Below, piece by piece: positions 1,994-54,032 of a DNA stretch of 64,000 bases (within the stretch, counting starts at the first letter, position 1; the number at the start of each line of letters is the position of its first letter). The position numbers and the translations under genes were made by a program. The stretch is from Streptomyces sp. CG 926. Lineage in GTDB: Bacteria; Actinomycetota; Actinomycetes; Streptomycetales; Streptomycetaceae. The notes under the pieces were generated by a model, which worked only from the letters and a program-made list of their open reading frames with translations, had not been told where the DNA came from and ran no database searches. Where the stretch lies: the NCBI RefSeq assembly GCF_003148825.1, contig NZ_QGGZ01000011.1, positions 310,001 through 374,000 on the forward strand, read 5' to 3'.

Positions 1994-3247
1994 TCAGAGT
2001 GCCTGCGCGGCGGGCTTGACCATGCCGCGCACTGTGCGCGACTTCACAAAGTCGCCCATGGCGGTCATCTCCCATTCGCCGGAGAACTGCTTGATCAGCT
2101 TGGCCATCATCACGCCGGTCTGGGGCTCGGCACTCGTCAGGTCGAAGCGCACCAGCTCCTCGCCGCTCGCCGCGTCGATGAGCCTGCAGTAGGCCTTGGC
2201 CACCTCGGTGAACTTCTGGCCGGAGAAGGAATTGACCGTGAAGACCAGGCCGGTGGCGTCGGCGGGGATCCGGCCGAGGTCCACGACGATCACCTCGTCG
2301 TCGCCGGCGCCCTCACCGGTGAGGTTGTCACCGGAGTGCTTGACGGCGCCGCCGAGGATGGACAGCTTGCCGAAGTAGCAGCTGTCGATGTGGTTGCGCT
2401 GGGGGCCGTACGCGATGACGGAGGCGTCGAGGTCGATGTCCTTGCCGCGGAAGGCGGGCTCCCAGCCCAGTCCCATCTTGACCTGCGAGAGCAGCGGACG
2501 GCCGCCCTTGACGAGGGAGACGGTCTGGTTCTTCTGGAGGCTGACCCGACCCTTGTCGAGGTTGATCTTCCCGGCGCCGGCGCCGGCGGCGGGGGCCGGC
2601 GGCGCGGGCGGCGCGACGGGGGCGGCCGGGGCGGGAGCCGCGGGCTGGGTGGCGCCGCCGAGCCAGGGGGAGGCCGGGTAGGAGACCGGCGGGGCCGGGG
2701 GAGCGGCGGGCGCCGGCGGGGTCACGGCCTGGGGCGCCGCGGGCTCCTCGTCCACGGAGACCCCGAAGTCGGTGGCGATGCCGGCGAGGCCGTTAGCATA
2801 CCCCTGGCCGACCGCGCGCACCTTCCACACGCCACCGCGCAGGTAGATCTCGACGACGACGAGCGCGGTCTCCGTGCCCAGCTGCGGCGGGGTGAATCCG
2901 GCGATCACCGCGCCGCCGTCGGCGTTGCGCACGGTGGCGGTGGGCTCGATGCCCTGGAAGCTCTGCCCGGCGGCGTCCGGGCTGGCCGTGACCACGATTC
3001 GCTCGATGCCCGGGGGCACGGCGCCGGTGTCCACGGTGATCGAGTCCGGCGTCGAACCGCCGCCGGACCGGTAGCTGACACCGGGCCCGGTGGGCTGGTT
3101 GAAGAAGATGAAGTCGGCGTCGGAGCGCACCTTGCCGTCCGCCGTCAGGAGCAGCGCCGATACGTCGAGACGCACCGGCGCAGCCACGTCGACCGTCACG
3201 CGGACGGCATTGAGCGGCAGGTTGGATCCAGGGGTCATAGCGGTCAT
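1994..3247 (-). CDS. Two-domain TerD-family (TerD/TerA-like) stress protein
   Basis: A 417-residue cytoplasmic protein. Residues about 5-170 form a TerD-type beta-sandwich (LDVSALLLTADGKVRSDADF, then FFNQP, the region that binds calcium in characterised TerD proteins). A Pro/Ala-rich linker follows (about 178-240), then a second TerD/TerA-like domain (about 242-410; IDLDASVIAYG, GDNLTGEGAGDDE, NSFSGQKF). TerD proteins are linked to tellurite, phage and envelope stress, though their biochemistry is unclear. ATG 3247 (MTAMTPGSN) was chosen over ATG 3238 by family resemblance; neither has a strong Shine-Dalgarno. It stands alone here, without terB/terC. A RING-TerD protein lies at 43052-45655. 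Confidence 0.85.
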   Translation of the reverse strand: MTAMTPGSNLPLNAVRVTVDVAAPVRLDVSALLLTADGKVRSDADFIFFNQPTGPGVSYRSGGGSTPDSITVDTGAVPPGIERIVVTASPDAAGQSFQGIEPTATVRNADGGAVIAGFTPPQLGTETALVVVEIYLRGGVWKVRAVGQGYANGLAGIATDFGVSVDEEPAAPQAVTPPAPAAPPAPPVSYPASPWLGGATQPAAPAPAAPVAPPAPPAPAAGAGAGKINLDKGRVSLQKNQTVSLVKGGRPLLSQVKMGLGWEPAFRGKDIDLDASVIAYGPQRNHIDSCYFGKLSILGGAVKHSGDNLTGEGAGDDEVIVVDLGRIPADATGLVFTVNSFSGQKFTEVAKAYCRLIDAASGEELVRFDLTSAEPQTGVMMAKLIKQFSGEWEMTAMGDFVKSRTVRGMVKPAAQAL

Positions 3248-4369: not shown

Positions 4370-5014
4370 TCACTCGTCGCTTTCGATGTAGCCGGTCTTC
4401 TCGCCGAAGGGGCGGAGGGCCTCCTTCAGGCTGGGAAACTTCTCCTCGGCGCGCTTGACGGCCGTACGCACCGTCCGGCGGGACACCCCGAGCCGCTTGG
4501 CGATCTTCGCGTCGCTGAGCAGGGCGCCCTCCTCGCTGAAACGCATTTCGAGGATGGCGCGCTGACGGCCTTTGAAGTGCCTGCGGAAGAGGTTCCAGAA
4601 CGCGTTGAGCTCGTCCGGGGCGAACCGGAAGTCGTCCTTGTCCTCGTCCTCGTTCCGGTTCTCGGGTTCCGGTGGCTCGTCGTCGGGGCCGCCGGGGTCG
4701 ACGAGGTGGTCGAAGTACGTCGTGGGGTACGCGTTCCTGCGGTCGCGGTTCTCCTTCCGGTTCAGGATCTTGATCTGGTTGAAGATCTCGTCGGTGAGGA
4801 GGTCCGTCACCTCCTCCAGTCCGGGATTCCTGTCGGCCTGGTCGAGTCGTACGAGCAGGCAAATGGCCGCCTCGCTCATGACCTGGATCTTGCTATCGCC
4901 CGATAGGGCGCGGAAGTCAGGGCTGACCAGTGCCCTCGACTCTGCGGCCCGGTACGCCTCGCGAAGGGTCTCGCGCGGCGGAGGCCCGCATCGCTGGGCA
5001 GGAATCTCGGTCAC
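4370..5014 (-). CDS. Sigma-region-4-like helix-turn-helix protein
   Basis: A 214-residue protein with a C-terminal HTH (about residues 138-195) that resembles sigma-70 region 4 (RQRAILEMRF, then SDAKIAKRLGVSRRTVRTAVKR). There is no recognisable sigma region 2, so it is more likely a DNA-binding regulator than a full sigma factor. The middle is very acidic (PEPENRNEDEDKDD, about 115-130). GTG 5014 is preceded by GGAGG at 5021-5025 with ideal spacing; the open frame upstream to 5209 lacks such a site. A/T-ending and lysine codons are more common than in neighbours, a mild hint of transfer. Two small membrane protein genes follow on the same strand. Confidence 0.7.
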   Translation of the reverse strand: MTEIPAQRCGPPPRETLREAYRAAESRALVSPDFRALSGDSKIQVMSEAAICLLVRLDQADRNPGLEEVTDLLTDEIFNQIKILNRKENRDRRNAYPTTYFDHLVDPGGPDDEPPEPENRNEDEDKDDFRFAPDELNAFWNLFRRHFKGRQRAILEMRFSEEGALLSDAKIAKRLGVSRRTVRTAVKRAEEKFPSLKEALRPFGEKTGYIESDE

Positions 5015-5312
5015 CGGTTGCCTCCACGCACTTGCCGACTCGGGGGTGGGACCGCCTGAAGGTGGTCCTACCCCTTGCGGAAATCGGCGGCAAAGTAGCC
5101 CGAGGCATCCATGTGGGTGCAGTTGACGGAGCGCCACATGGAGAGGGGGTGTTGCGTACGAAAGGCGGCCGCCCTCCCGGGATCGGGAAGGCGGCCGCTC
5201 GGGTCGCACGGGGCTGGGGCTGTGAAGCCGGGCCCCTTCGACGGTGCCGGTGGTGGCGCCGGTGGTGGTTGCGGTGGTCGTTCCGGCTGCCGTAGCGCGG
5301 CGCGCGTTCCGC
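5015..5312. other. Gene-free stretch between HTH gene and aldehyde dehydrogenase
   Basis: Holds the presumed promoter of the HTH gene (right of 5014), the terminator at 5165-5198 and a GGTGG-rich simple stretch (about 5240-5282, variations on GGTGGTGGC). No convincing gene is seen. Confidence 0.5.
5165..5198 (-). terminator. Terminator of the aldehyde dehydrogenase gene
   Basis: GCGGCCGCCCTCCC (5165-5178) pairs with GGGAAGGCGGCCGC (5185-5198) with one mismatch and a six-base loop. On the minus strand the stem is followed by CTTTCG, so it fits the end of the gene whose stop is at 5313. Confidence 0.65.
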
Positions 5313-6836
5313 TCAGCCTCCGGTGACCTGGCGCGGCAGTCCCAGCGGGTTGGACTCGCGCAGCTCCGGCGGAAGGAGCGCGTCCGGCACGGACTGGTAG
5401 GCCACCGGCCGCAGCCAGCGCTCGATCGCGGTGCCGCCCACCGAGGTGGAGTGCGAGGTGGCCGCCGGGTAGGGGCCGCCGTGGTGCTGGGCCGGGGCCA
5501 CCGCCACCCCGGTCGGCCAGCCGTTGACCACGATCCGCCCCGCCAGCCCGGTGACCTGCCCGATCAGCGCGGCGGCCGGACCCGGCGCGCCCTCGGTCTC
5601 GGCGGCCGACAGCTGGAGCGTGGCGCTCAGGTTCCCGCCGAGGAGCCCGAGGACCGCGCCCGCCTCGTCCTGATCGGCGTACCGCACGACGACGGTGACC
5701 GGACCGAAGCACTCCTCCAGGAGGACGTCGTACGCACCGCCCTCCAGGAGCTGTTCGGCCCGCACGGTCAGATAGCCCGCCCCGACGGTGTGTTCCCCGC
5801 CGGAACCGGGGGTCACGGGTGCGTCGACGCCGGGCAGCGCGGTCCGTTCGCGTACCCCGGAGACGAAGTTCTCCCGCATCCGGTGGTCGAGCAGCACCCC
5901 CGGCTCGATCTCCCCGAGCGCCTTGGTGAGCTCTCCGGTGATCCGGTCGCCGTCCGGGCCCTCGGGGACCAGTACCAGGCCGGGCTTCACGCAGAACTGC
6001 CCGACGCCGAGGGTGACCGAGCCCGCGAGCCCGGCGCCGATCTCCTCGGCGCGTTCGGCGGCGGCGGCCGGGGTGACCACGACGGGGTTCAGGGAGCCCA
6101 GTTCACCGTGGAAGGGGATCGGCACGGGCCGGGCGGCGGCCGCGTCGAACAGAGCCCGCCCGCCCCGGATGGAACCGGTGAATCCGGCGGCCGCCACCAA
6201 GGGGTGGCGGATCAGCTCCAGGCCGGCGTCGAACCCGTGGACCACGCTCACCACTTCGGCCGGGAGCCCGGTCGCGACTGCGGCCCGGCGCAGCAGCGAG
6301 GCGCACAGCTCGGAGGTGGCGGGGTGGTCGGGGTGCGCCTTGACGACCACGGGGCAGCCGGCCGCGAGCGCGCTCGCGGTGTCGCCGCCGGGGACGGAGA
6401 AGGCGAGCGGGAAGTTGGAGGCGGCGTAGACGGCGACCACGCCGAGCGGGATCTTGTAGCGGCGCAGCTCGGGGCGCGGCGGGCTGAGGGTGGGATCGGC
6501 ACGGTCGATCCGGATGTCGAGGTAGGACCCGGCGTCCACGGCGTCGGCGAAGGCGCGCAGCTGGCCGGTGGTGCGGGCCAGTTCGCCGGTGAGCCGGCCC
6601 GGGCCCAGCGCGGTCTCGGCGTCGGCGGCCTCGATCACATGGGCGGCCGACTCGTCCAGCAGCGCGGCGGCCGCACGCAGGAAGGCCGCGCGGACGGTGG
6701 CATCGGCGAGCGCGCCGCGGGCGGCGTGGGCGGCCCGTACCGCTTCGTCCACCTCCTGGGGTGTGGCCTCCACCGCAACCTGTTCGCGCTGCTTCCCGGT
6801 GCGGGGGTCCACACTCCAGACTGAAGTCGTTGTCAT
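5313..6836 (-). CDS. Alpha-ketoglutaric semialdehyde dehydrogenase family aldehyde dehydrogenase
   Basis: A 507-residue NAD(P)-dependent aldehyde dehydrogenase that best fits the 2,5-dioxovalerate (alpha-ketoglutaric semialdehyde) dehydrogenase branch, the last step of non-phosphorylating sugar-acid and hydroxyproline catabolism. The catalytic Cys is in GQFCVKPG (about residue 285), the general-base Glu in FHGELGSLNP (about 245), and the nucleotide-binding segment contains ASNFPLAFS and KAHPDHP. Length is normal. ATG 6836 has GGAGG nine bases upstream. It is divergent from an IclR regulator with a perfect palindrome between them, which suggests local control by a sugar-acid-like effector. No other pathway gene is next to it. 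Confidence 0.85.
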   Translation of the reverse strand: MTTTSVWSVDPRTGKQREQVAVEATPQEVDEAVRAAHAARGALADATVRAAFLRAAAALLDESAAHVIEAADAETALGPGRLTGELARTTGQLRAFADAVDAGSYLDIRIDRADPTLSPPRPELRRYKIPLGVVAVYAASNFPLAFSVPGGDTASALAAGCPVVVKAHPDHPATSELCASLLRRAAVATGLPAEVVSVVHGFDAGLELIRHPLVAAAGFTGSIRGGRALFDAAAARPVPIPFHGELGSLNPVVVTPAAAAERAEEIGAGLAGSVTLGVGQFCVKPGLVLVPEGPDGDRITGELTKALGEIEPGVLLDHRMRENFVSGVRERTALPGVDAPVTPGSGGEHTVGAGYLTVRAEQLLEGGAYDVLLEECFGPVTVVVRYADQDEAGAVLGLLGGNLSATLQLSAAETEGAPGPAAALIGQVTGLAGRIVVNGWPTGVAVAPAQHHGGPYPAATSHSTSVGGTAIERWLRPVAYQSVPDALLPPELRESNPLGLPRQVTGG

Positions 6837-41694: not shown

Positions 41695-41928
41695 TCAGAC
41701 GCGGTCGACGATGCCCACCTTCCCCTCCTCCCGGGCGCAGTGCGCCCCGCAGAACCACTGCCCCTCGACCTCGACGCCCTGACCGATGATCGAGACCCGG
41801 CAGTGCTCGCAGACGGGCGCCATGCGGTGGATGGCGCAGGAGAAGCAGTCGAAGACGTGCACGGCGCCCTGCGCGTGCACCTCGAAGGACATGCCGTAAT
41901 CGTTTCCGCAGACCTCACAACGTGCCAT
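41695..41928 (-). CDS. Small Cys/His-rich putative zinc protein
   Basis: A 77-residue protein with paired CxxC-type sites: CEVCGNDYG (4-7), CFSCAIH (about 28-34), CEHC (about 41-44) and CGAHC (about 60-64), enough ligands for two zinc ions. The body is otherwise plain, starting MARCEVCG. No DNA-binding motif beyond the zinc knuckles is visible. ATG 41928 begins right at the first CxxC; the open frame to 41964 adds nothing of note. Function unknown. Confidence 0.8.
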   Translation of the reverse strand: MARCEVCGNDYGMSFEVHAQGAVHVFDCFSCAIHRMAPVCEHCRVSIIGQGVEVEGQWFCGAHCAREEGKVGIVDRV

Positions 41929-42020: not shown

Positions 42021-42992
42021 TCAGGACTCGGCCGCAGCCACGTCCCGCAGCAGCTGGGTGAAGGCCGCCTCGTCGACGACCGGCGTCCCGAAGCTCTTCG
42101 CCTTGACCGTCTTGGAGGTCGCCGAATCGGGGTCGTTGGTCACCAGGAGGCTGGTGAGCCGCGACACACTCGTCGCGATGTGCAGACCCGCCTCGACGGC
42201 ACGGTCCTCCAGCAGCTCCCGCTCCACCGAGGTGTCACCGGAGAAGGCGATCCGCATGCCCTGCTTCAGCGGCTTGCCGTCCTCGAAGCGCCCCGGATTC
42301 GGGTGCGGGCACGGCGGCCGCTTGCGCGAGGGCCGCCAGCTGTTGCCCCGGTAGGAGGCCTGGTATCCGATCCGCGGGGTGACGGGGGAGTCCGACCACT
42401 CCGTCAGCGGCCGGCACTCCAGCAGAGGAAGCCGTACGCCGCCCTCCGCGGCCGCGTGCAACGAGGGGCGGAACGCCTCCGCGAGCACCCGGGCGTCGTC
42501 GAGCGCGTGGTGGGCGCGCTGCTGGACCACACCGAAGTGCGCGGCGAGCGACTCCAGCTTGTGGTTGGGCAGCGGCAGGTTCAGTTCCTTCGACAGGGCG
42601 ATGGTGCACAGCCGCTGACGGACCGGTGCGGTCGCGGCGGCCCGCGCGTACTCCCGGGCGATCATCTGCCAGTCGAAGATGGCGTTGTGCGCGACCAGCA
42701 CCCGGTCGGCGAGCCGGTCGGCGAACTCCTCGGCGATGTCCTCGAAGAGCGGGGCGTCGGCGAGCATCGCGCTCGTCAGCCCGTGGATCCACACCGGTCC
42801 CGGGTCCCGACGCGGATTGACCAGCGTGTACCAGTGGTCCTCCACATTGCCCTGGGCGTCGAGCCGGTAGACGGCGGCGGAGACTATCCGGTCGTCGCGA
42901 GCGAGCCCGGTGGTCTCCACGTCGACGACCGCGTACCCCTTTGGGTACGCGGTCGGCCACATCGTCTCTGCGGTCGTACGGTCGTCGAGCAT
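42021..42992 (-). CDS. DEDDh 3'-5' exonuclease with C-terminal BRCT domain
   Basis: A 323-residue protein. The exonuclease (about residues 20-180) has ExoI VVDVETTGL, ExoII HNAIFDWQMI and ExoIII HHALDDAR motifs of the DnaQ/epsilon group. A Pro/Arg-rich linker (about 205-235) precedes a BRCT domain (about 238-320; GMRIAFSGDTSVERELLEDRAVEAG, LTSLLVTNDPDSATSK and KSFGTPVVDEAAF). This suits repair or RNA/DNA end processing, not the replicative proofreading subunit. ATG 42992 was chosen; GTG 42998 is also possible. Shine-Dalgarno is weak for both. Confidence 0.9.
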   Translation of the reverse strand: MLDDRTTAETMWPTAYPKGYAVVDVETTGLARDDRIVSAAVYRLDAQGNVEDHWYTLVNPRRDPGPVWIHGLTSAMLADAPLFEDIAEEFADRLADRVLVAHNAIFDWQMIAREYARAAATAPVRQRLCTIALSKELNLPLPNHKLESLAAHFGVVQQRAHHALDDARVLAEAFRPSLHAAAEGGVRLPLLECRPLTEWSDSPVTPRIGYQASYRGNSWRPSRKRPPCPHPNPGRFEDGKPLKQGMRIAFSGDTSVERELLEDRAVEAGLHIATSVSRLTSLLVTNDPDSATSKTVKAKSFGTPVVDEAAFTQLLRDVAAAES

Positions 42993-43051
42993 GGTCACAG
43001 AGGATATCGGCCCCGACTGACACCCGTGGCCGCGCAGGCGCTTCCCGGCCG

Positions 43052-45655
43052 TCAGCCGAGGGCGGCGACCAGGTCGCCCGCCGCGAGCTGTTCGAGGCCA
43101 CAGCCGTCAACCGGCCCCGGCAGCAGCCGGTATACGGAGCCGCTCGCGCCCGCGGGCGCCACCTCGCCGTCCACCAGCGCGAGGAACACCGACCGGCCCG
43201 AGGCGGCGCTGCCGGCGAGGGAGTCGACCTCCGCGGAGGCCAGCACGGCGTCCGGATCGCGCAGCTCGACGAGCCGCGCGGCGAAGGCCGCGGTGTCCTC
43301 GCCGGAGCCCCGGCGGTAGGTCCACAGCTCGTCGGGATCGCTCGGCCGAGGGGTGCGGCGCAGCACGGTCACCTCGCGGCAGCGCGCGGCCGCGTGCCAG
43401 CCGGCCAGCTCCCACAGCGTGGTGCGGCCGGTCGAGAAGTACTGGAACAGGTCGCGCCCGATCCGCGCCAGGTCCTCCTGGTGCGCCCACACGCTGTGGT
43501 AGCCCTCGTCGTCGGGCAGGTGGACGTCCGTCCACAGGAAGCCGCGCCGCTCCAGGTCGACGAGGAGCGGCACATGGATCCGGGAGTTGCCGACCAGGTC
43601 GTAGCGCTGGCGCACGGTCCGGGGGTCGTAGCGGGCGGTGCGGCCGGAGCGGGTGGGCAGGGCCATGAAGCCGGCGAAGGCGTCGGGCAGCAGCTCGAAG
43701 GGGATGTTGTTGTAGCTGAAGACGACGGGCATGGCGAAACGCACACCGGTGTCGGCGAGGGCGTCCAGGTCGATGTCCACGTACTCGCTCGCCCCGTGGG
43801 GCGCCGGCGCCGAGACGAGGTCGCCGGAGTGGACGACGGCCCGCGCGCCGTGGACGAGGTTCGTGTAGTCGCACAGGCCCACGTAGTTCCAGTCGGTGTC
43901 GAACAGCACCACCGACAGGTCCAGGTCCACGCGGTTGCGCGCGGGTTCCATCCAGTGCAGGAACATGCGCAGCACCTCGCCGTCCGGCAGCGCCTGGAAG
44001 CTGCCCTTGGGTACGGTGACCAGCGCCTTGGCCGCCGCGCGCTCGGCGGAGGGGACGTGCAGGTGGGCGAGGCGGGAGTCGAGGACCGCCAGGTCGCAGG
44101 GGTCGGCCGAGGCCAGCCTGCGCAGCACCTCGTTCTCGAACAGCGCGCACACCGAACGGGTCACCGCCTCGGCCAGTGGGGCCCGGTCGTCCGTGACGGT
44201 GAAGGAGTGGGCGACCTGCCCGCGCGGGAAGAACACCCGCCGGGTGCCGGGCAGATGGCGGATCCGCAGCCGTCCGAGCGCGGACAGCAGGGGTCCGGGG
44301 CCGGCCTTCGGCAGCCGCTCGGCCAGCACCTCGGCGACCCGGGGCGCCAGGGTGTCGGCCGCGTACAGCCGCAGCAGGTGGTCGAGGCGCCGGACGAGTT
44401 CGCCGGGGCGTTCGGCCAGTACGGCGAGCGCCCGGTCCGGATCCCCGCCGCGCAGGGCCTCTTCGGCGCGCGCGAGCCAGGTGGCCGCCCGGACCCGCGA
44501 GCCGTCGACCCGGACCGCGTGCGGGTACGCGGCGGCGGTGGCGAGCAGTGCGGTGCCGAGGGCGGTGCCGGTGGTGGCGGTCCCGGTGATGTCGGTGCCG
44601 CGCAGTACGGCGAAGGCGAGGGCGGCCCGCGGGTGGCGGGCGTGCTGCTCGAAGGGGTGCAGGATCTCGGAGGCCCGCTTCCACAGGTCCTCGTGGCGCA
44701 GTACGTCCTCGACGAGCAGCGCGGGATCGAGCCCGTCCAGGACGGCCAGCAGTTCACGCCGCAGCGGGCGCGGCAGGGAGCGTACGCGCGGGGGTTCCAG
44801 GAGGTCGGCCTCCCCGCCGGACCACACGGCGAGCAGCCGCAGCACATCGGTGGCGGTGGTGAGCCGCTCCGGCAGCAGGGCCCGTACGGCCTCCCGCGTA
44901 CGGCGCTCGCGCAGCAGGGTGCCCAGGACCAGGGCCTTGGTCTCCCGAACCGGTATGTCGTCCGGGAGCCAGTCGAGGTCGGCCGGCGCGTGGGCGAGGA
45001 GCACCCGGGTCTCGGTCCTGTCCTGCGGGGAGAGCGGGGTACGGCGGGCGAGCAGCTTCCCGAGGGCGGTGACGGAGTCGGCCGCGCGGTCGGTGGAGAA
45101 GGCCAGCAGCCGCAGCGGGCCGCCCCCGGTGGGCACCTCCCCCGCGGGCGGGGACGGCCGGATGAACGGGTCGGCGGGGTCGACGCGTCGGTGGCAGACC
45201 GGGCAGCCGCTGTAGTCGGCGCCGTCCCAGCAGGTCCGGCAGACCAGGTGGGCGCACGGCGCGACGGGATGCACGCTGCCGACGGCCCGACACAGCACGC
45301 ACGGCTGGTCCGGCCACTGCAGGAGCAGGGTCAGGACCCGGTCGGTCCACAGCGCGAGGGTGTCGTCGGGCACCGAGGCCGGGAACGAGCGGAACAGCGG
45401 CATGTGGGTGCGGTCCGCGCCCAGCAGGATGTCGATGTCCCGGATCAACTGCGCGCCGGCGGCGGCGAGTCCGGCGGGTCCGAGCCAGGCGAGCGCCGAA
45501 CGCAGCGGGACCGTGAGGGCGTAGCCCCGGTCGAGCAGTTCGGCTTCCAGGGCCGTCAGGCCCTCGGTCGTCGACGGGTCGCTCGGGCGTGGCCCGGCCT
45601 GGTCGACGTAGACGGTGTGCAGACGGCGCAACAGGACGGTCGACAGCTCGGGCAA
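43052..45655 (-). CDS. RING-TerD protein of the MXAN_6230/SCO0854 family
   Basis: An 867-residue protein. Residues 119-154 form a canonical C3HC4 RING: CVLC, then CAHLVCRTC, then CPVC, with spacing C-x2-C-x11-C-x-H-x2-C-x2-C-x8-C-x2-C. A long Leu/Ala-rich helical region follows (about 160-560), then a TerD-like beta-sandwich (about 570-680; VDLDLSVVLFDTDW, SEYVDIDLDALAD, PVVFSYNNIPFELLPDAF) and a C-terminal domain. TTG 45655 (LPELSTVLL) has GGAGG ten bases upstream; the open frame to 45787 is low-complexity. Bacterial RING proteins are rare; E3-like activity or scaffolding in a Ter-type stress response are both open. A convergent or linked E1/E2 gene was not seen. Confidence 0.85.
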   Translation of the reverse strand: MPELSTVLLRRLHTVYVDQAGPRPSDPSTTEGLTALEAELLDRGYALTVPLRSALAWLGPAGLAAAGAQLIRDIDILLGADRTHMPLFRSFPASVPDDTLALWTDRVLTLLLQWPDQPCVLCRAVGSVHPVAPCAHLVCRTCWDGADYSGCPVCHRRVDPADPFIRPSPPAGEVPTGGGPLRLLAFSTDRAADSVTALGKLLARRTPLSPQDRTETRVLLAHAPADLDWLPDDIPVRETKALVLGTLLRERRTREAVRALLPERLTTATDVLRLLAVWSGGEADLLEPPRVRSLPRPLRRELLAVLDGLDPALLVEDVLRHEDLWKRASEILHPFEQHARHPRAALAFAVLRGTDITGTATTGTALGTALLATAAAYPHAVRVDGSRVRAATWLARAEEALRGGDPDRALAVLAERPGELVRRLDHLLRLYAADTLAPRVAEVLAERLPKAGPGPLLSALGRLRIRHLPGTRRVFFPRGQVAHSFTVTDDRAPLAEAVTRSVCALFENEVLRRLASADPCDLAVLDSRLAHLHVPSAERAAAKALVTVPKGSFQALPDGEVLRMFLHWMEPARNRVDLDLSVVLFDTDWNYVGLCDYTNLVHGARAVVHSGDLVSAPAPHGASEYVDIDLDALADTGVRFAMPVVFSYNNIPFELLPDAFAGFMALPTRSGRTARYDPRTVRQRYDLVGNSRIHVPLLVDLERRGFLWTDVHLPDDEGYHSVWAHQEDLARIGRDLFQYFSTGRTTLWELAGWHAAARCREVTVLRRTPRPSDPDELWTYRRGSGEDTAAFAARLVELRDPDAVLASAEVDSLAGSAASGRSVFLALVDGEVAPAGASGSVYRLLPGPVDGCGLEQLAAGDLVAALG

Positions 45656-45805
45656 AGGGGGGAGTCCTCCGGAACCGGAAAGGGAGAGTGGGCGGGGCCG
45701 GAGAGGGGACGCGCTACGGTTTTCGGAGAAGTGAGAAGGAAGCACGTCGCGGAGCCGCCCCCGCGCCGCAGATACAACCACGGGCACGGGAGCGCGCCAA
45801 GCGAT
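45656..45805. other. Gap between RING-TerD and TetR genes
   Basis: A 150-base region holding the GGAGG before the TTG start at 45655 and presumed promoter sequence; the TetR gene stop lies at its right edge. No repeat or gene seen. Confidence 0.4.
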
Positions 45806-50963: not shown

Positions 50964-53900
50964 TCAGCTCATGTAGCGCAGCCGCTCCGGCGGGAACAGC
51001 TCGGTGCCGAGCAAGTTGTTGGGGCCGTACACCTCGACGACGAGGTCGTCCTTCGCCGCCAGCGGCGAGAGGTCGACCGGCCCGCCGCAGAAGCTCACCA
51101 CGAACCGGGTCAGTTGCGGCAGTGTGAGAAGGGGTTCCAGCCCCGAGCCCAGTGTGCACTTCAGCAGGGTGAGGTCGGTCAGTTCCTGATGCCGGACCAG
51201 CATCGAAGCAACGACCACCATCCCGTTCAGCTGGAGCAGTCTCAGAGCCGGCACCGACTGCTGGTCCGCCAGCTGACGGGCCTGCCGTTCGCCGGAGATG
51301 ACCAGCGATCCGAGCTCCGACCAGCGCTCGATCCCGTCGAGACCGACGCGGAGCGCTCCCTTGAACAGTGCGAGCGAGCGCAGCGTGCTGGGCAAGGGGA
51401 GATCGGAGAGTGCGGCAATGCCGGCGTTGTAATCCAGCGTGAATCCGGTGAGCGAGGAGAGCGTGGCCAGCGGCGCCAAGGACACACCGGACGCGATCCG
51501 CGAGAGGCTCAGGGAACGCAAGGGCAGCTCGGACAACGGGGTGAGGTCGCAGATCCCGGGACATTCGTAGAGCCCCAGGTACCTGAGGTCGTGGAGGGCG
51601 GTCAGCGGTGAGAGGTCTGTGAGCCGGTCGTCGCGGTGAACGGTCAGCGCTTCCAGATCCGGCCGGGCGACGACGACGTCGGGCAGCCAGTGCCCGTCCC
51701 TGAGGCTGATGTGCCGGGCGTGCACCAGCAGCGACAGATGGGCCAGTTCCTCGGAGGTGTAGACACTCACGTAGACGGTGGTCAGATCGGCGTGCGCAAG
51801 GACGGACTCGACGTAGGCGGAGGTGGGGAACCTCCGCCAGTTGTCGGCCAGTTCAATCGCTACTTGCGGGCGGGTGTCCGTCCGGAAGCGGGCGATGAGG
51901 CCGAGTGCCTGCGGACCGCCCACCAGGGCGGCGGTTCGGACGGTGACTGCGGCCTCCCTTTCGGTGAGGTCGGCCGGGCCGGGCAGCAGGTCCAGGACCA
52001 GCTCACCGGCCCTGGCCAGTTCCTCCGCCTGCGGGAACCGGCTGGGGGGCAGCAGGTCGGCGGTACGCGCCTGGACTTCGGCGCGGACCGCCGGGTCCAG
52101 TTCGGGGGCGTGTTCCAGGCAGGCCGCCGCCAGTAGGACGAGGCGGTCGTGGACCGACTTCACCTTGTCCGCCCGGCGGAGCAGACCCCTCAGCAGGCGG
52201 ACGCGTTCGTCCGGGCGGGCGTGGCCCACCGCCATGCGGACCACGTCGTCCCAGGAGTCGTCCTGCGCGTTCTTCACCAGCACGCCGAAGTCCCGCGACT
52301 CCACCGCCGCCTTGGCACCCAGATAGTCCTGGAAGGTGCGATGGACGAAGACCACCGATCCCGGGGTCGGCTCCAGGAGCAGTCCGCTGCGGATCAGCAG
52401 GTGGGTGAAGACCTGCTCCGCCCCGCCCTGCGCCCGCACCTGCGGCATCGCGTCCAGCCACTCGGCCACCATCTCGACGGCCTCGCCCCGGCCCGCCTCC
52501 AACTGCCCGTTGCGGATCAGCCAGTACGCCAGTCGCTGGAGCAGCGCGATCTGCTCCTCGCGGGTGAGGTGGACCCCCTCGACCCCGCAGATCTCCCGTT
52601 CCGTGTCCCGCCGGACCAGCAGCATGTCCAGCGCCGCGTCGTACAGCTCCTTACGGGCCCGGGGGAGCTGCATCCGGCGGTCCTGGTTCAGGGCGCACAG
52701 CAGCGCGCACATCAGCGGGTTCGTGGCCAGCCGGGCCAGATCCCGCCGGGAGGAGACCGCCTCCAGCAGCGAGGCCTCGTACGCGTCCACCTCCTGCCCG
52801 CCCGCACGGGCCGCCGCGTGCCAGTGCTTCACGAAGGCACGGATGTCCCGCTGGTCCATCGGCAGCATCGTGTGCGTGGCGAACCCGAGGCCCGCGAGCC
52901 AGTCCTCCGGGACCGCCGACGGGCGGGTGGTCACCACGTACCGCGCCTTCGGATAGGCGGCGACGAGCGAGCGCAGCCAGGTCTCCGTGCGGGTGCGCAG
53001 CCGCTGCGGGACTTCGTCCACCCCGTCCACCAGGACCAGCGCCCGGCCGCTCAGCATGAGGTCCTCGACCCAGCCCGACGGCGCGGACAGCGGTACGCCA
53101 CCCGCGCGCGGGAAGTCCTCCGGCAGGGGCAGGTCGCCCGACGCCGTGAACGAGCGCAGCCGCAGCACGAACGGCACGCACGTGTTCCACGGGCCGGCGC
53201 TCTGCCGGGCGGCGTTCAGGGCCAGCCACTGGACCAGGGTCGACTTTCCCGAGCCCGCCGGGCCGCGCAGCAGGACCCGGTCGGCACGGGCGAGGGCCTG
53301 CTCGGCCCGGACCTGGGTCCGGTGGAGCTCCGGCTCGCCGGGCAGCAGCGGCTGCTCACCGCTGACCGCGAGGCTGATGTACGCCACGTCCAGCGGCCAT
53401 TCCTGGCGGGAGCGGCTGAGGGTCAGGCCGAACAGCTGGAGCCGGCCGTGGGTGTGCTCGATGTACTGCGCGTACCGGGCCTCGAAGGCGTACGCCGTCC
53501 CGTCCCCGGTGGCGCCGAGTCGGTCCACCGCTCGTGCCAGCTCGCCCGTCCGGCGGACCAGTTCCACCCCCGTCCGGGCTCCGAAGGCCGGCAGGGTCGT
53601 CACGTACTCCACCGCGTGCGCGCAGCACAGTCGCACCAGCCGGCCGTACAGGGCCTCGGCCGAGGGGGACAGGCCCGCCGGGGGTGGGGGGACGGTCGCC
53701 GCCAGGGCCGCCGGGTCGAGGTCCGTTGCGAAGAGGGCCTCCGCGTCCAAGGGGCCGAGCGCCGCGAAGGCGTCGCCGACCGCGTCCAGTGCCGCCAGAC
53801 GCTCGTGCTCCGGCAGCGCCGCGCACTCCGGGCCCAGCCGGGCCGCCAAGGCTTCGGTCAGGCGCCGCATCTCGCCGTCGCCGAGCTCCGCCGGGGGCTT

Positions 53901-54032
53901 GCGCCACCTCGGGGCCGGCCGCGCCGGATCGGGCGCCAGGCCCGCCCCCGGGGCCCGCGCGAGGAGCGACTTCACCAGCGTCCCCGCCGCCGTCCCCGCC
54001 ACCCGTAAGAGAACCGTCTCGACGCCCGTCAT
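50964..54032 (-). CDS. NACHT-LRR protein (bacterial NLR-like, candidate phage defence)
   Basis: A 1022-residue STAND ATPase. Residues about 1-250 form an N-terminal helical domain of the NNH type found in bacterial NACHT proteins. The NACHT domain (about 250-430) has Walker A GPAGSGKSTLVQW (about 257), Walker B LVLVDGVDEVP (about 328) and sensor TTRPSAVPE. A winged-helix/helical linker follows (about 500-780), then leucine-rich repeats (about 790-1000; LTDLSPLTALHDLRYLGL, LTPLSELPLRSLSL and similar). Bacterial NACHT proteins related to NLRs protect against phages, the C-terminus usually acting as sensor and the N-terminus as effector. The LRR-coding part is less G+C-rich. ATG 54032 has GGGAGG about eight bases upstream. 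Confidence 0.92.
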   Translation of the reverse strand: MTGVETVLLRVAGTAAGTLVKSLLARAPGAGLAPDPARPAPRWRKPPAELGDGEMRRLTEALAARLGPECAALPEHERLAALDAVGDAFAALGPLDAEALFATDLDPAALAATVPPPPAGLSPSAEALYGRLVRLCCAHAVEYVTTLPAFGARTGVELVRRTGELARAVDRLGATGDGTAYAFEARYAQYIEHTHGRLQLFGLTLSRSRQEWPLDVAYISLAVSGEQPLLPGEPELHRTQVRAEQALARADRVLLRGPAGSGKSTLVQWLALNAARQSAGPWNTCVPFVLRLRSFTASGDLPLPEDFPRAGGVPLSAPSGWVEDLMLSGRALVLVDGVDEVPQRLRTRTETWLRSLVAAYPKARYVVTTRPSAVPEDWLAGLGFATHTMLPMDQRDIRAFVKHWHAAARAGGQEVDAYEASLLEAVSSRRDLARLATNPLMCALLCALNQDRRMQLPRARKELYDAALDMLLVRRDTEREICGVEGVHLTREEQIALLQRLAYWLIRNGQLEAGRGEAVEMVAEWLDAMPQVRAQGGAEQVFTHLLIRSGLLLEPTPGSVVFVHRTFQDYLGAKAAVESRDFGVLVKNAQDDSWDDVVRMAVGHARPDERVRLLRGLLRRADKVKSVHDRLVLLAAACLEHAPELDPAVRAEVQARTADLLPPSRFPQAEELARAGELVLDLLPGPADLTEREAAVTVRTAALVGGPQALGLIARFRTDTRPQVAIELADNWRRFPTSAYVESVLAHADLTTVYVSVYTSEELAHLSLLVHARHISLRDGHWLPDVVVARPDLEALTVHRDDRLTDLSPLTALHDLRYLGLYECPGICDLTPLSELPLRSLSLSRIASGVSLAPLATLSSLTGFTLDYNAGIAALSDLPLPSTLRSLALFKGALRVGLDGIERWSELGSLVISGERQARQLADQQSVPALRLLQLNGMVVVASMLVRHQELTDLTLLKCTLGSGLEPLLTLPQLTRFVVSFCGGPVDLSPLAAKDDLVVEVYGPNNLLGTELFPPERLRYMS

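Follow-up and report, generated by a model that had tools for sequence, protein, structure and literature searches.

RING fingers are usually taken as a sign of ubiquitin-type conjugation. Prokaryotic RING-type E3s are known from complete operons for ubiquitin-like proteins (Ubl; PMC7159879). Ter proteins, for their part, are proposed sensors of nucleotide-like signals that counter phages and xenobiotics, and those of jumbo phages have been argued to act in superinfection conflict or competition, with TerD as the ligand sensor (PMC7824862). In the gut Jug phages, the TerD genes are highly transcribed (PMC12363816). The protein analysed here combines a RING with a TerD domain and belongs to the NCBIfam family NF041916 (MXAN_6230/SCO0854 family RING domain-containing protein); the literature searched contained no mention of either MXAN_6230 or SCO0854.

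The RING-TerD gene and its domains

The gene lies in a 64,000-nucleotide stretch (the window) of the 8.5 Mb genome of Streptomyces sp. CG 926, and its closest RING relatives are also found in Streptomyces. The features discussed below are as follows.

43052..45655, minus strand: MXAN_6230/SCO0854-family RING-TerD protein, 867 aa, TTG start, NF041916 match
45666..45670, minus strand: probable ribosome binding site GGAGG, 10 nt before the TTG, judged from sequence
45326..45655, minus strand: family-wide N-terminal domain, residues 1–110, with motif F91-P92, kept in 83 bacterial and phage members
45194..45301, minus strand: C3HC4 RING, residues 119–154 (Pfam; PDB profile search)
44051..45088, minus strand: helical (HEAT-like) domain, residues 190–535, with near-invariant Arg residues and a TATDVLR motif (AlphaFold2 secondary structure; conservation)
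43517..44020, minus strand: TerD beta-sandwich, residues 546–713, with DxDLS, HSGD and GxxE motifs (hhalign; Foldseek)
43055..43498, minus strand: C-terminal alpha/beta extension, residues 720–867, complete in the RING clade (alignment and model)
42021..42998, minus strand: DEDDh exonuclease-BRCT protein, directly downstream of the RING-TerD gene; a core Streptomyces gene

Translation is taken to start at TTG 45655, with GTG 45787 as an upstream alternative in the open frame. Coding bias is strong, GC3 being 93% in the RING-TerD ORF versus 77% in the long antisense ORF. The product matches NF041916 over model positions 2–842 with 1113 bits (cut-off 600 bits), and is a full-length member showing no difference from the family. 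The initial annotation, made from the sequence alone, had named this family and had described a RING and a TerD domain within one bacterial protein; both statements hold, the RING being recognised by Pfam Prok-RING_4 and the TerD domain by hhalign and predicted fold. The AlphaFold2 model of the whole protein has a pLDDT of 86.8 and a pTM of 0.83, and its RING region is of low confidence (block mean pLDDT 46–75).

The RING comprises eight ordered ligands (C119, C122, C134, H136, C139, C142, C151 and C154) whose cross-brace spacing predicts zinc sites, in agreement with the C3HC4 finger originally proposed at residues 119–154. Prok-RING_4 matches the protein with E = 9.6e-20 (70.7 bits) and matched nothing else in a search of the source genome, while the complete ligand pattern arose in 0 of 20,000 shuffles of the protein. 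When the family profile was compared with PDB sequences, the RINGs of CBL-B and CBL were the top matches (1.3e-6), and a full RING is present in at least 79 of the 81 family members examined. The family shares its eight ligands and C3HC4 spacing with Prok-RING_4 and with eukaryotic RING E3s such as CBL-B, but differs from them in that His replaces the linchpin Arg in most members, the E2/Ubl context is lacking, and some relatives have one zinc site only. At the linchpin position, which follows the last Cys and is not decisive for E3 activity, His is found in 58 of 76 members and Arg in 5; 60 of the 76 have a hydrophobic VL separating the first two Cys.

Pfam TerD (PF02342) gives no match to the protein itself. 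The TerD-type sandwich reported in the initial annotation is nevertheless borne out, as kinship, by two independent methods, profile-profile comparison and predicted fold. Using hhalign, residues 546–710 were aligned with the TerD proteins of the same genome (95.4%, E = 1.7e-8), NF041916 positions 558–671 match a true TerD protein (P0004) at 1.6e-6, and the TerD structure 3ibz is the only PDB match below E = 1e-3 for the AlphaFold2 model (Foldseek E = 3.4e-5, TM-target 0.73). In common with TerD (PF02342; structures 3ibz and 2kxt), the domain has a predicted beta-sandwich fold and the DxDxS and HSGD motifs. It differs in falling below Pfam detection, in being embedded in a long multidomain protein and in only partly keeping the classical GDDE acidic motif, where the E is present and DD has become AS. 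The separate TerD protein noted earlier at 1994–3247 (minus strand) is a true TerD (Pfam 3.6e-69). TerD paralogues are common in this genome (14 matches), so that the presence of Ter genes alongside the family carries little weight. A classical ter cluster sits elsewhere in the genome (L021), and no linked TerB, TerC, PRTase or HAD genes were seen among the recurrent neighbours of the RING loci.

A core shared with plasmids and large phages

Residues 1–110 and the helical-TerD core define a wider family, new here, which extends beyond the RING proteins. The core was recovered by tblastn and profile scans from plasmids, among them those of Deinococcus, Variovorax, Vibrio and Niallia, and from phages such as Weasels2, XacN1, RcXuper and an uncultured one of 485 kb. 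A first scan of viral contigs with a single protein as the query returned no matches; alignment-based scans of IMG/VR gave 11, 64 and 66 loci, and 82 distinct phage/plasmid members remained after copies were removed. The phage family phrog_33734 aligns to residues 387–732 (E = 2.2e-39) and so has the same helical-TerD core as the Streptomyces protein, but its phage members tested carry either a partial RING, which we call a hemi-RING, or no RING at all. One contig from the phage collection (L145) encodes a full RING. BFVD models of phage proteins match the model of the Streptomyces protein over much of its length and, for a phage hemi-RING member, the predicted order of elements is the same, with TerD structures among the best matches of the model.

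The hemi-RING (C-x-H...CPxC) occupies the RING position in ten diverged members, namely seven phage contigs and the Variovorax, Vibrio and Deinococcus plasmids. Its residues would retain the ligands of zinc site 2 and lack those of site 1. Zero matches to the pattern are expected by shuffling, and most of the hemi-RINGs tested align to the second half of Prok-RING_4 (positions 12–44), the best at 1.5e-8, 1.7e-6 and 1.5e-5 (Pfam), while the Vibrio hemi-RING reaches only 0.022 and the Deinococcus one has no Pfam match. Most phage members have neither a full RING nor a hemi-RING. An intermediate zinc pattern, with the site 2 ligands and an extra Cys at the position of the fifth ligand, was observed in one phage member (L223:8001-10205).

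In a tree built from the core with the RING columns left out, the complete RING forms one actinobacterial clade (SH-aLRT 99), hemi-RINGs fall in two places, and four changes account for all labels; this tree has long branches and is without a settled root or direction of change.

Proposed function of the core and the RING

Across 83 diverse members, the positions conserved in at least 88% of the sequences are mainly D577, D579, S581, H609-D612, G621, E624 and D627 within TerD and, elsewhere, F91-P92 of the N-terminal domain together with eight Arg/Lys sites that lie in the helical region or where it joins TerD. The RING, unlike these motifs and basic sites, varies. This pattern of residues suggests that what the members have in common is binding of a ligand or metal by the core, with the RING as an accessory. 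We lean, on balance, towards a stand-alone Ter-type protein that senses a ligand or metal, in which the RING is a clade-specific protein-binding module and which acts, independently of ubiquitin, in stress or in conflict with phages. The core would sense a metal ion or a small or nucleotide-like ligand through the DxDLS, HSGD and GxxE motifs of TerD and the arginines conserved in the helical domain. The RING would be a zinc-stabilised docking module that recruits or holds a partner protein, and not a ubiquitin E3. The most likely setting is stress or conflict with phages and mobile elements, as proposed for other Ter proteins.

An alternative, possible but doubtful, is that anti-phage action or superinfection exclusion is the main role of the protein, which phages and their hosts would exchange and in which the RING would dock an effector. 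The core occurs in the 82 distinct phage/plasmid loci, many of them from large phages, and the Ter system of jumbo phages has been proposed to act in this way (PMC7824862). The distribution in Streptomyces is also patchy: among 199 genomes, 32 have a RING form that scores above the family cut-off and 48 have a RING-less paralogue, and the two nearly exclude each other, occurring together in one genome, that of the window, against 7.7 expected (hypergeometric p = 8e-4, uncorrected for phylogeny and scoring only the top candidates per genome). However, PADLOC gives no match for the RING-TerD protein, no defence neighbours recur and there is no conserved phage neighbour. A defence island was rejected since no PADLOC family is recurrent among 136 neighbours, as was a conserved phage partner, the commonest neighbour cluster being present in only 9 of 82 loci.

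Two observations concern the surroundings of these genes. An NNH1-NACHT-LRR protein, resembling bacterial NLRs, is encoded in the window at 50964–54032 (minus strand; Pfam NACHT 2.6e-22; weak match to the antiphage protein EruA), and in 9 of 81 loci a member of its family is found close to the RING gene, directly upstream in L075 and L122. The RING-less paralogue of the source genome (L020:7091-9262), which has no Cys cluster at the RING position, adjoins a gene for an NAD-dependent DNA ligase with a BRCT domain (4480–6546; G000:C14).

More speculatively, and in our view unlikely, the complete RING was assembled from, or has decayed to, a one-zinc hemi-RING with no link to ubiquitin, in a family of bacteria and huge phages that joins a nucleotide- or RNA-binding, possibly Ro60-like, helical core to a TerD metal sensor. 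If this is true, steps in RING evolution are visible in prokaryotes.

Ubiquitin, RNA and the adjacent exonuclease

An E3 role for the protein is unlikely. Such a role would have the RING recruit an E2 charged with a ubiquitin-like protein while the TerD and helical parts pick substrates under stress, making this a true bacterial E3. The closeness of the RING to that of CBL-B by profile, the hydrophobic VL found in most members and the precedent of RING-type E3s in complete Ubl operons (PMC7159879) all speak for it, yet we judge it improbable. The linchpin Arg is missing in most members, and relatives persist that have zinc site 2 only or no RING; the first zinc site, which shapes an E2-binding face, is missing from the diverged relatives. 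The initial annotation had hinted at a Ter network with ubiquitin-like features, and this found no support: among 136 neighbour proteins of 35 RING loci outside shared synteny, no Ub, E1, E2, JAB or Ter family recurs, and the families which do recur are regulators, transporters, hydrolases and other common enzymes. The JAB protein of the source genome adjoins a gene for a 92-residue MoaD/CysO-like protein, which is the housekeeping CysO/Mec arrangement, and the genome encodes only two ThiF proteins. The E2 models PF14461 (199 genomes) and PF14457 (own genome) gave no match, a result which leaves absence unproven as the positive controls were also silent.

Slimmer still are the chances of an RNA-binding, Ro60-like particle protein, in which the helical domain would be a TROVE-like ring and TerD would replace the vWA domain. 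A phage model matches Deinococcus Ro (2nvo) with a Foldseek probability of 0.99 over 384 columns, the arginines are near-invariant and the Variovorax plasmids have an rtcR gene 1.3 kb upstream. However, the same match has E = 0.027 and a TM-target of only 0.32, Ro is outside the 50 best matches for the model of the Streptomyces protein, and hhalign against Streptomyces TROVE proteins was negative. Pfam finds no TROVE in the protein, and TROVE kinship was rejected for want of sequence-profile support. The likeness to Ro60/Rsr (TROVE) is a loose similarity of the helical domain in one predicted model, without similarity of sequence profiles and with TerD instead of vWA, and we regard this fold match as a weak lead. 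Further RNA-repair genes were seen, namely RNA-ligase genes on the Vibrio and S. halstedii plasmids and RtcB in phage Weasels2, but RNA-ligase genes are no nearer to phage members than chance (2 within 5 kb versus 2.2 expected) and RNA repair was therefore rejected as a general link. In five other Streptomyces (G108, at C12:104177 and 105534; G023; G129; G183; G194), though not in the source genome, a TROVE (Ro60-like) match lies 1.4–4.1 kb from a TerD gene resembling that at 1994–3247.

A partnership of the RING-TerD protein with the neighbouring DEDDh exonuclease-BRCT protein in the processing of DNA or RNA is very improbable: in 45 of 81 loci the exonuclease gene directly follows the RING gene on the same strand, and left flanks vary, but it is near-universal in Streptomyces (191 of 199 genomes, against 32 for the RING gene) and absent from the roughly 10 kb flanks examined at 35 RING loci, so that the adjacency looks like a shared insertion site. 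The exonuclease is a conserved neighbour and no dedicated partner. Despite its ubiquity, it scores 252 bits to the PADLOC phage-defence candidate PDC-S48. Close by, at 41695–41892 (minus strand), is a gene for a 65-aa Cys/His-rich protein with LIM-like spacing by eye and no Pfam match, which in 36 of 81 loci is kept between the gene for the exonuclease and that for SURF1.

The core is common to many large phages in which it carries half a RING or none, and on this basis the RING-TerD protein probably binds a ligand and serves in stress, independently of ubiquitin. An unexplained Streptomyces family is thereby tied to phage biology; the putative Ter-type sensor that is its conserved heart also occurs in dozens of large phages. 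As a RING family with one-zinc or zinc-less relatives, it also offers a test case for ubiquitin-independent RING function and for the origin or decay of the two-zinc RING.
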